Shown piece by piece: positions 3,864 to 5,964 of a DNA stretch of 64,000 nt; the stretch's first letter is position 1; each line of letters begins with the position of its first letter. The stretch is taken from NCBI GenBank assembly GCA_030836185.1, contig JAURQH010000050.1:62001-126000 (forward strand), given 5' to 3'. Source of the DNA: Planctomycetota bacterium. GTDB lineage: Bacteria; Planctomycetota; Planctomycetia; Planctomycetales; Planctomycetaceae. The position numbers and the translations under genes were made by a program. The notes beneath the pieces were generated by a model. It saw only the letters and a list, made by a program, of their open reading frames with translations, was not told the origin of the DNA and did not search any database.

Positions 3864-4880
3864 TCAGCCGACTCCCACGTTAATCGCAGAAGCAACCCGC
3901 TTGCACAATTCCATCGTTTCCACAAAGGTGTCTGGATCGAGAGATTGCGCACCATCGCTGAGAGCTTCTGAGGGTTCAGGATGTACTTCAACAATTAGGC
4001 CATCGGCTCCCGCTGCGATTGCTGCCGCACACATTGGTGATACGAGAGACGCCTTTCCTGTTCCATGACTGGGATCGATCACAACAGGCAAATGCGTGCG
4101 TTCATGTAGAAAGGGAATAGACGCGAGAGGCAACGTGAACCGAGTGTGAGATTCGAAAGTGCGAACTCCACGTTCACACAGCGCCACTCGCTGATTACCG
4201 GCATCCAAAATATATTCCGCCGCCAATAAGAATTCATCCATCGTTGCCGACATTCCCCGTTTCAGCAGAATCACTTTATCGGTCTCTCCAACAGCCTGGA
4301 GAAGCTGGTAATTCTGCATGTTACGTGCACCAATTTGTAGCACGTCGGCGTAGTTGGCGACCAAAGCGACATCGGAGGGCGTCATAACTTCCGTGACGAC
4401 TGCCAAACCTGTCTCTTCACGGGCGGCTGCAAGAAGTTTCAAACCCTCTTCTTTTAAGCCTTGGAATGCATAGGGACTCGTCCTCGGCTTGAATGCACCT
4501 CCTCGTAAACCGGTGGCACCAGCCGCCTTGACTCGGCGAGCTGATTCCATAATTTGTGTTTCCGACTCAACTGAGCAAGGCCCTGCAATAACTCCCACAT
4601 GACCTCCTCCCAAGGTCAGGTCATGAGTCTTCAGGACCGTCGGTTCGGACTTCGCTTCGAGACTGGCAATTTTGTAGGGAGCCAGAATCGGAACCACTTT
4701 TTCGACTCCCGGTAAACTCGATAGAGTCTCCTGATGGCCGTTTCGTTCATCGCCAATGGCGGCGACAACAGTCCGTTCATCTCCCACAATGACGTTTGAG
4801 CGTAACCCGAGCGAGTCCACTTTATTCACCACAACCGTCACCATTTCCGAGGTGGCTTCTTTTTTGAGCACAACGATCAT
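3864..4880 (-). CDS. aroF: 3-deoxy-7-phosphoheptulonate (DAHP) synthase, N-terminally regulated type
   Basis: 338 residues from the ATG at 4880; a TTG four codons upstream (4892) is a less likely start. The enzyme joins phosphoenolpyruvate and erythrose 4-phosphate, the first step of the shikimate pathway. Residues 1-70 form the small ferredoxin-like regulatory domain (MIVVLKKEAT, VVAAIGDE) known from feedback-inhibited type I-beta enzymes such as that of Thermotoga. The barrel shows GPCSVES, LRGGAFKPRTSPYAFQG, QIGARNMQN, LLKRGMSAT, VIDPSHGTG and EVHPEP, which include the metal-binding Cys, His and Glu. The upstream region 4904-5120 looks like an aromatic amino acid attenuator, so both transcription and enzyme activity may be controlled by end products. 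The symbol is generic; aroG or aroA might be used elsewhere. Confidence 0.95.
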   Translation of the reverse strand: MIVVLKKEATSEMVTVVVNKVDSLGLRSNVIVGDERTVVAAIGDERNGHQETLSSLPGVEKVVPILAPYKIASLEAKSEPTVLKTHDLTLGGGHVGVIAGPCSVESETQIMESARRVKAAGATGLRGGAFKPRTSPYAFQGLKEEGLKLLAAAREETGLAVVTEVMTPSDVALVANYADVLQIGARNMQNYQLLQAVGETDKVILLKRGMSATMDEFLLAAEYILDAGNQRVALCERGVRTFESHTRFTLPLASIPFLHERTHLPVVIDPSHGTGKASLVSPMCAAAIAAGADGLIVEVHPEPSEALSDGAQSLDPDTFVETMELCKRVASAINVGVG

Positions 4881-4903: not shown

Positions 4904-4966
4904 AAAAAAACCCCAGAAACCATCACCGGTTTCAGGGGAGTTATATCATGTCACTGTCCTGAAACC
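4904..4966 (-). promoter_or_regulatory. candidate transcription attenuator of DAHP synthase
   Basis: Three minus-strand segments are mutually complementary. A (4966-4958) is GGTTTCAGG, B (4938-4928) is CCCCTGAAACC, C (4921-4911) is GGTTTCTGGGG. A pairs perfectly with B over 9 bp (antiterminator). B pairs with C over 11 bp with one mismatch, a 6-base loop and seven T at 4910-4904 (terminator). The two stems exclude each other. Segment A begins one base after the stop codon of the leader ORF. The terminator's T run ends 23 bases before the aroF ATG, too close for another promoter between them. I did not find a fourth segment pairing with A. Confidence 0.75.
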
Positions 4967-4967
4967 A

Positions 4968-5060
4968 TTATTCCATGGAATACCAACCGAAATAGAAAAA
5001 CCCTGCAAAACCGAATTCCGGTTGCGAGAGAATCCATTTGTACAAAGTTGATAAGGCCAT
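4968..5060 (-). CDS. putative aromatic leader peptide of the aroF attenuator
   Basis: 30 codons, ATG at 5060 to TAA at 4968. The peptide starts MALSTLYKWILSQ and ends FGFAGFFYFGWYSME: five Phe, two Tyr and one Trp lie in these last 15 residues, with Tyr7 and Trp9 earlier. The stop is one base before antiterminator segment A. A ribosome reaching the stop would cover A and let the terminator form; a ribosome stalled in the FFYF stretch, about 25 or more bases before A, would leave A free. There is no clear Shine-Dalgarno site before the ATG. The function is inferred from position and composition; a small independent membrane peptide is the main alternative. Confidence 0.65.
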   Translation of the reverse strand: MALSTLYKWILSQPEFGFAGFFYFGWYSME

Positions 5061-5093
5061 GAAGTTCACAATCAATTCAGGGAGATAAGGCAA

Positions 5094-5120
5094 GTATTAC
5101 AGTTCGAACTTGAGCGTCAA
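5094..5120 (-). promoter_or_regulatory. candidate promoter of aroF leader
   Basis: TTGACG (5120-5115) and TAATAC (5099-5094) lie 15 bases apart, a slightly short spacing. It sits just after the stop of the preceding gene and would start transcription near 5087, about 27 bases before the leader ATG, giving a leader of about 180 bases up to the terminator. Confidence 0.5.
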
Positions 5121-5124
5121 TGCT

Positions 5125-5964
5125 TCAGAAATCACTTTGACCCCAATGAACCGTTTCAGGTTCGCTTAATTTGCGAATTCGGATGGAATCGATGGCTCCC
5201 GTTGTCTGAAATGTCGAAAGCCCCAAGGGACATGAGAGTTCCACATCGGGCCGAATCGAAATTTGTGTCCCTTCGATGTCTTCATCGATAATTCGCTCTC
5301 CATCAATCCAGGCAAGAATTCGCTGATCAAGAACCATCAAACGAATTTTGTAAAACTCTCCCTGATTGAACAAGCGAAACGTGGTGGTGTTATTCTCGGA
5401 AGCATCCATTGTATCGAGACTCGATAGGCCGCAAACTCCACCTCCCCACCCCCCCAGAATCAAACTGCAATACGATTCTTTCACCGGGAAGGTGAGACCA
5501 CTGAAAAAATCGGTCCCATCCACTCGAGCCGCTTTGAGTTCCACTTCGTAATTGGATTTTGGTATCTCAGTTTTTCCCGTATAAGTCACTCCGGTCAGAT
5601 AGGCTCCCAATTCCATCACAATTTGTCCGTCTCGGATAGCAACGTCACCTTCACCGCCATACTTGGTCGACTCCCAATTCTGCATCGTTTTCTGATCGAA
5701 CAGACTGACCCATTGAGGTTCAGGAAACGGCGTAGGGCGTTCGGCCTTCAAGGCGGGAACATCAGCAGGTCCAACCAAAGAAACCAATTCGATTTCGTGC
5801 TGATGACTCTGAGTTTCTGTGGCCTGATCGTCGCTAAGCGCGGCCGAGGAATCACTCCCCTGAAAGATCACCCCCCCTGCGATCAAGAGAGTCGCGCAAG
5901 CAAACAGACTTGCAAACAGGCCATGGGAATCGTTTTTTGCAGATTGACGGTCGTCTAAAGTCAT
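5125..5964 (-). CDS. exported DUF1080-like (3-keto-disaccharide hydrolase-like) protein
   Basis: 279 residues from the ATG at 5964; an in-frame TTG at 5994 is less likely. A membrane-spanning or signal segment lies near residues 17-35 (LFASLFACATLLIAGGVIF). From about residue 80 a single jelly-roll domain follows: WVSLFDQKTMQNWE, an opening typical of DUF1080, then GDVAIRDGQIVMELG, SNYEVELKAARVDG, FYKIRLMVLDQRILAWIDGERI and a closing GLSTFQTTGAIDSIRIRKL. Members are common in planctomycetes and thought to act on sugars or bind carbohydrates; no catalytic residues can be assigned here. The candidate aroF promoter begins right after its stop. Confidence 0.75.
   Translation of the reverse strand: MTLDDRQSAKNDSHGLFASLFACATLLIAGGVIFQGSDSSAALSDDQATETQSHQHEIELVSLVGPADVPALKAERPTPFPEPQWVSLFDQKTMQNWESTKYGGEGDVAIRDGQIVMELGAYLTGVTYTGKTEIPKSNYEVELKAARVDGTDFFSGLTFPVKESYCSLILGGWGGGVCGLSSLDTMDASENNTTTFRLFNQGEFYKIRLMVLDQRILAWIDGERIIDEDIEGTQISIRPDVELSCPLGLSTFQTTGAIDSIRIRKLSEPETVHWGQSDF

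Follow-up and report, generated by a model that had tools for sequence, protein, structure and literature searches.

The described systems closest to the one reported here are leader peptides found or predicted ahead of aroF genes in other bacteria. In C. glutamicum, aroF is preceded by the aroR leader with its Phe-Tyr-Phe sequence, which is reported, in the accounts that summarise it, to act when Phe is limiting (PMC4046766; PMC11802643, citing Neshat et al. 2014). A predicted element, uORFC-13-1, lies upstream of aroF in Acholeplasma, with 24 representatives drawn from Acholeplasma and environmental sequences only (PMC8632094), and a table in PMC2659441, citing 1980 E. coli work, lists aroF with an attenuator that senses tRNA-Tyr. 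For a long time nearly all documented leader-peptide systems came from Proteobacteria and Actinobacteria. Apart from a Firmicutes case of its own, a 2010 survey knew of none elsewhere, and it noted that hardly any of the attenuators predicted in Acidobacteria had been assigned a function (PMC2965389). In the open-access literature, outside which most subscription papers lie, we found no published planctomycete or acidobacterial case. The preliminary description of the present locus had taken the element to be undescribed; this stands for planctomycetes in the literature searched, but not for DAHP synthase attenuators as such, since C. glutamicum aroR and Acholeplasma uORFC-13-1 are known.

The DAHP synthase gene aroF in the window (the whole 64,000-nucleotide stretch of planctomycete DNA analysed here) is very probably controlled by a ribosome-mediated transcription attenuator of the classic type. 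The anatomy of this element, its conservation, the covariation of both of its stems, its absence at sibling genes, and the folds predicted for its RNA are all shown here. The attenuator first proposed from the sequence is supported by a leader frame that is conserved among relatives and by antiterminator (A:B) and terminator (B:C) stems that change together.

Anatomy of the aroF leader

The regulated gene occupies positions 3864 to 4880 on the minus strand, as do all the features described below. Its 338-aa product gives PF18152, PF00793, and NF006421 matches in domain searches and a full-length match to the Thermotoga DAHP synthase 1rzm, and is by these matches a type I-beta DAHP synthase with an N-terminal ferredoxin-like regulatory domain. 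Ahead of it lies a leader ORF of 30 codons (5060-4968; MALSTLYKWILSQPEFGFAGFFYFGWYSME), whose last 15 residues, FGFAGFFYFGWYSME, include 5 Phe, 2 Tyr, and 1 Trp. These 8 aromatic residues fall within 12 codons, a density that a short ORF reached in 6 of 5000 dinucleotide shuffles of the window leader, and the cluster is conserved among relatives. The ORF stops at TAA (4970-4968), one base before segment A, which itself begins 12 bases past the last Tyr codon. With the stop placed in this way, a terminating ribosome would cover A, and one stalled at the control codons would not.

Three segments follow the cluster. Segment A (GGTTTCAGG, 4966-4958) is the 5' arm of the antiterminator, segment B (CCCCTGAAACC, 4938-4928) is common to the antiterminator and the terminator, and segment C (GGTTTCTGGGG, 4921-4911) is the 3' arm of the terminator; these assignments draw on sequence and predicted folds for all three, with covariation for A and B and a genus alignment for C. 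A (4966-4958) and part of B (4936-4928) form a perfect 9-bp match. B and C enclose a 6-base loop (GGTGAT) and are followed by a run of seven T (4910-4904) that, read directly from the sequence, completes an intrinsic terminator between the leader ORF and aroF, with 23 bases separating the T run from the aroF ATG (4880). Upstream, TTGACG (5120-5115), a 16-bp spacer, and AATACT (5098-5093) make up a putative promoter spanning 5120-5093, assigned from the sequence together with the conservation of its hexamers: among three members of the genus TTGACG and an nATAnT hexamer are kept and the spacer between them has diverged. No obvious Shine-Dalgarno site precedes the leader ATG in the window.

Most of this anatomy had been noted in the preliminary description, and its 30-codon ORF, stop position, 9-bp A:B pairing, 23-base distance, and lack of a clear ribosome site all agree with the sequence on re-inspection. 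Two of its features held in part. The loop and T run of the B:C hairpin were right, but the 11-bp stem is in fact 10 pairs and one U-U mismatch between CCCCTGAAACC and GGTTTCTGGGG; in the alignment, both same-genus genomes have GGTTTCAGGG(G) at segment C, without the U-U mismatch. For the promoter, TTGACG stands, but the −10 hexamer given as TAATAC is better placed one base away, at AATACT, with a spacer of 16 bp. A, B, C, and the T run all align across the three genus members.

Predicted folds and a model for the switch

Folds were computed on the leader RNA from its predicted start. In the whole free leader RNA the terminator is predicted to form and a 5' segment, CCTGAA (5081-5076), to hold A through TTCAGG (4963-4958). 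A segment pairing with A had earlier been listed as missing, and this one supplies a candidate protector, with the terminator as the default; it is predicted in the window genome (G000) and, of the other two genus members, present as sequence in G002 and weak in G001. If the RNA ends at B, A:B is predicted to form, as it is in the RNA left free beyond a ribosome halted in the Phe run; for the RNA beyond a ribosome at the stop, B:C is predicted. When the RNA is folded from 3 bases before A through the T tract, with no effect of ribosome timing, B:C also forms, which means that a free A need not keep the terminator from winning at equilibrium. Taken alone, A:B and B:C have the same predicted energy (−16.1 kcal/mol each), so the order of synthesis and the position of the ribosome must decide between them, as in the classical model.

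By analogy with the enteric paradigm we infer how the ribosome stalls, that it senses charged tRNA, and which way expression responds, as follows. Transcription would start near 5086 and proceed through the leader ORF with a ribosome translating close behind. If charged tRNA-Phe, tRNA-Tyr, or tRNA-Trp were scarce, the ribosome would stall in FGFAGFFYFGWY, leaving A free to form A:B, which would bar C from B and allow readthrough into aroF. If, on the other hand, all three tRNAs were charged, the ribosome would reach the stop, one base before A, and cover A; B:C would then form and transcription would stop in the T tract. If the leader were not translated at all, the 5' segment could hold A, and the terminator would form in this case too. 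An element of this kind implies transcription-translation coupling at aroF in planctomycetes, a group whose cell organisation has been debated.

Conservation at aroF and controls at other genes

Three sources supplied upstream regions of AroF orthologs: the nearest genomes, genomes of the wider class, and a collection of named genomes. One criterion was applied throughout, under which 12 codons of a short ORF had to include 5 or more F/Y/W and a hairpin and T run had to come after the ORF. Leader and terminator together were found at 67 of 96 distinct Planctomycetia type I-beta aroF loci, compared with 2 of 960 shuffles. The remaining 29 of 96 loci (about 30%) failed; some perhaps did so through the limits on ORF length or distance, and others perhaps truly lack the element. 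The genus alignment and these 67 loci agree in keeping the aromatic-rich frame, the conservation among relatives that had been named at the outset as a check on the leader ORF.

One alternative is that the B:C hairpin merely ends transcription of the upstream gene (5994-5125) and that the aromatic ORF arose by chance. The gene shares the strand of the hairpin and its end, at 5125, is about 190 bases ahead of it, which suits such an arrangement in the window. In relatives, however, it adjoins aroF only in a few cases, yet leader and terminator stand together at the 67 loci just described; the upstream neighbour differs in most relatives, and the terminator thus goes with aroF. Segment A, for which a plain terminator has no need, moreover covaries with B (see below), and we regard this explanation as extremely improbable.

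The aromatic cluster that precedes the terminator mixes its signals. All three of Phe, Tyr, and Trp occur in the cluster in 39 of 44 leaders from dereplicated loci, and the cluster codons of the 44 leaders total 149 Phe, 76 Trp, and 72 Tyr. A mixed signal of this kind fits the common first step of the aromatic pathway. The Trp codon of the cluster has been lost in the nearest relative, so Trp sensing may vary. The position of A relative to the stop also differs: in the genus of the window A is located just past the leader stop, unlike in most relatives, where it lies within the end of the ORF (peptides ending RDFR, GISG, and so on), about 9 bases past the last aromatic codon.

None of the sibling genes examined carries the element. 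By the same criterion, 0 of 30 trpE/pabB loci and 0 of 29 pheA loci pass, and leader and terminator were found together at 0 of 20 additional trpE/pabB copies and 0 of 20 second-paralog aroF (AroF-II) loci. Among the tested genes the element is thus specific to this aroF.

The regulated enzyme is not the only one of its kind in these genomes. In many relatives the type I-beta enzyme is accompanied by a second paralog of the same type with about 50% identity (L214, L216, L221; AroF-II loci L152-L171), which in several genomes lies directly downstream of pheA; at the loci of this paralog examined in relatives, the attenuator was never seen. That aroF might be the sole DAHP synthase of the window genome is ruled out by a second one (L314; G000, contig C93, 91193-92089), which has 356 aa and a type I-alpha-like sequence. 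Upstream of this second gene neither an aromatic leader nor a terminator was found, and the two DAHP synthases of the window genome may be under different regulation.

Covariation of the stems

A swap test covered 44 dereplicated loci. The stretch that follows the aromatic codons scored 20.5 against its own B and 17.4 against the B of other loci (sd 0.39), an own-partner advantage reached in 0 of 20,000 permutations, although permutation removes the effect of shared ancestry only in part. A control region far upstream gave a null result in the same test (2411 of 5000 permutations). As a check on bias, A was also picked from the family consensus alone, without reference to its own B, and the result was again 0 of 20,000 permutations. 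B:C covaries too in swap tests on the relatives' loci. The compensating changes that the preliminary description had proposed looking for are thus present, with A:B and B:C changing together between species: GGACTTC pairs with GAAGTCC in L023 where GGATTTC pairs with GAAATCC in L006, and TGAGGA pairs with TCCTCA in L118.

The two stems are not equally regular. At position 6 of the 9 core positions of A:B, segment A often has C or G opposite the U of B, giving a C-U mismatch or a G-U pair, and this position is paired in 25 of 40 cases in A:B versus 38 of 40 in B:C. Such mispairing would leave the antiterminator as the weaker of the two stems.

A swap test on 17 Isosphaeraceae loci found A:B complementarity not above permutation. 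Isosphaeraceae and near relatives (L042-L068, L080, L081, L138, L148-L150) have a strong terminator and, with a GWWW...F motif, an aromatic leader, and their antiterminator may lie elsewhere.

Covarying stems by themselves would be compatible with any antiterminator switch, including one in which a protein (for example an RNA-binding protein that responds to aromatics) or a small ligand (as in a riboswitch) selects between A:B and B:C and translation of the leader is incidental. What is conserved 5' of A, however, is no RNA domain but an open frame in which Phe, Tyr, and Trp codons are densely clustered and whose stop falls at or just after A. Covariance-model searches of the window stretch and 20 relatives against Rfam likewise returned no family match above the gathering threshold, only sub-threshold chance matches, and we consider selection by a ligand or protein very unlikely. 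Alternatively, the leader peptide itself might sense a free aromatic amino acid and arrest the ribosome, as TnaC does, with no codon-by-codon reading of charged tRNAs. Although nascent peptides rich in aromatic residues could stall ribosomes, only the density of F/Y/W codons immediately before A is conserved here, not the order or spacing of the peptide. Codon-based sensing would be expected to leave such a pattern and sequence-specific arrest would not, which makes a TnaC-like mechanism scarcely credible.

Distribution and history

The element extends beyond Planctomycetia. Among the loci listed from other planctomycete classes it is found ahead of aroF in 10 of 22, a count that excludes three additional matches in the same listing that belong to Planctomycetia, and in Acidobacteriota it is found ahead of aroF in 19 of 30 genomes of one class. 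In both sets A matches its own B better than the B of others (0 of 5000 permutations each). Single occurrences were seen in one Rokubacteria genome, one Myxococcota-assigned genome, and one unassigned genome; the element was absent from the Chloroflexota sequences sampled and from most Rokubacteria sequences.

In the Acidobacteriota class (L239-L267, L234) the element takes a form of its own: its leaders include MRFSRFYFYGGWADH, its A arms include GAGTGG, and the aroF terminators follow the pattern AGCCCACTCG...CGAGTGGGCT.

The leader is strongly clustered on a quick AroF tree, where it requires 16 changes compared with about 36 in shuffles; at least 10 of the 16 changes are forced by well-supported (starred) branches. 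This distribution fits either long inheritance with losses or several gains. We think it probable that the type I-beta DAHP synthase of Planctomycetota and Acidobacteriota, and in single instances that of Rokubacteria and Myxococcota, is controlled by an undescribed attenuator family that senses Phe, Tyr, and Trp alike, that this family has been inherited together with its enzyme for a very long time, and that in planctomycetes aroF is the only tested aromatic-pathway gene so controlled, trpE and pheA being without it.

Comparison with known attenuators

The element described here combines a known kind of mechanism with a type of gene known elsewhere as its target, in phyla for which we found no report. 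It places leader-peptide attenuation at the entry to the aromatic pathway in two such phyla, and it offers targets for reporter studies and an RNA family absent from Rfam.

Like C. glutamicum aroR, as that system has been summarised, it attenuates a DAHP synthase gene by means of a leader peptide whose control codons are aromatic. The two differ in that aroR belongs to an actinobacterium and is described with Phe-Tyr-Phe, whereas the planctomycete leaders also hold Trp in 39 of 44 cases. The C. glutamicum aroF encodes a different DAHP synthase subtype. The Acholeplasma uORFC-13-1 resembles the planctomycete leader as a predicted uORF with one or more Phe codons just before a terminator upstream of aroF, but at least one Phe codon is what is noted there and no mixed Phe/Tyr/Trp cluster is described (PMC8632094).

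With the enteric trp, pheA, pheST, and his attenuators the element shares control codons in a leader ORF, an antiterminator and a terminator that exclude each other, and a protector helix, here a candidate. Leaders with mixed control codons exist for ilv and thr. The enteric trp, pheA, pheST, and his systems, however, each rely on a single kind of control codon and act on a terminal branch or on a tRNA synthetase, whereas the planctomycete element stands at the common first step of the pathway and mixes all three.
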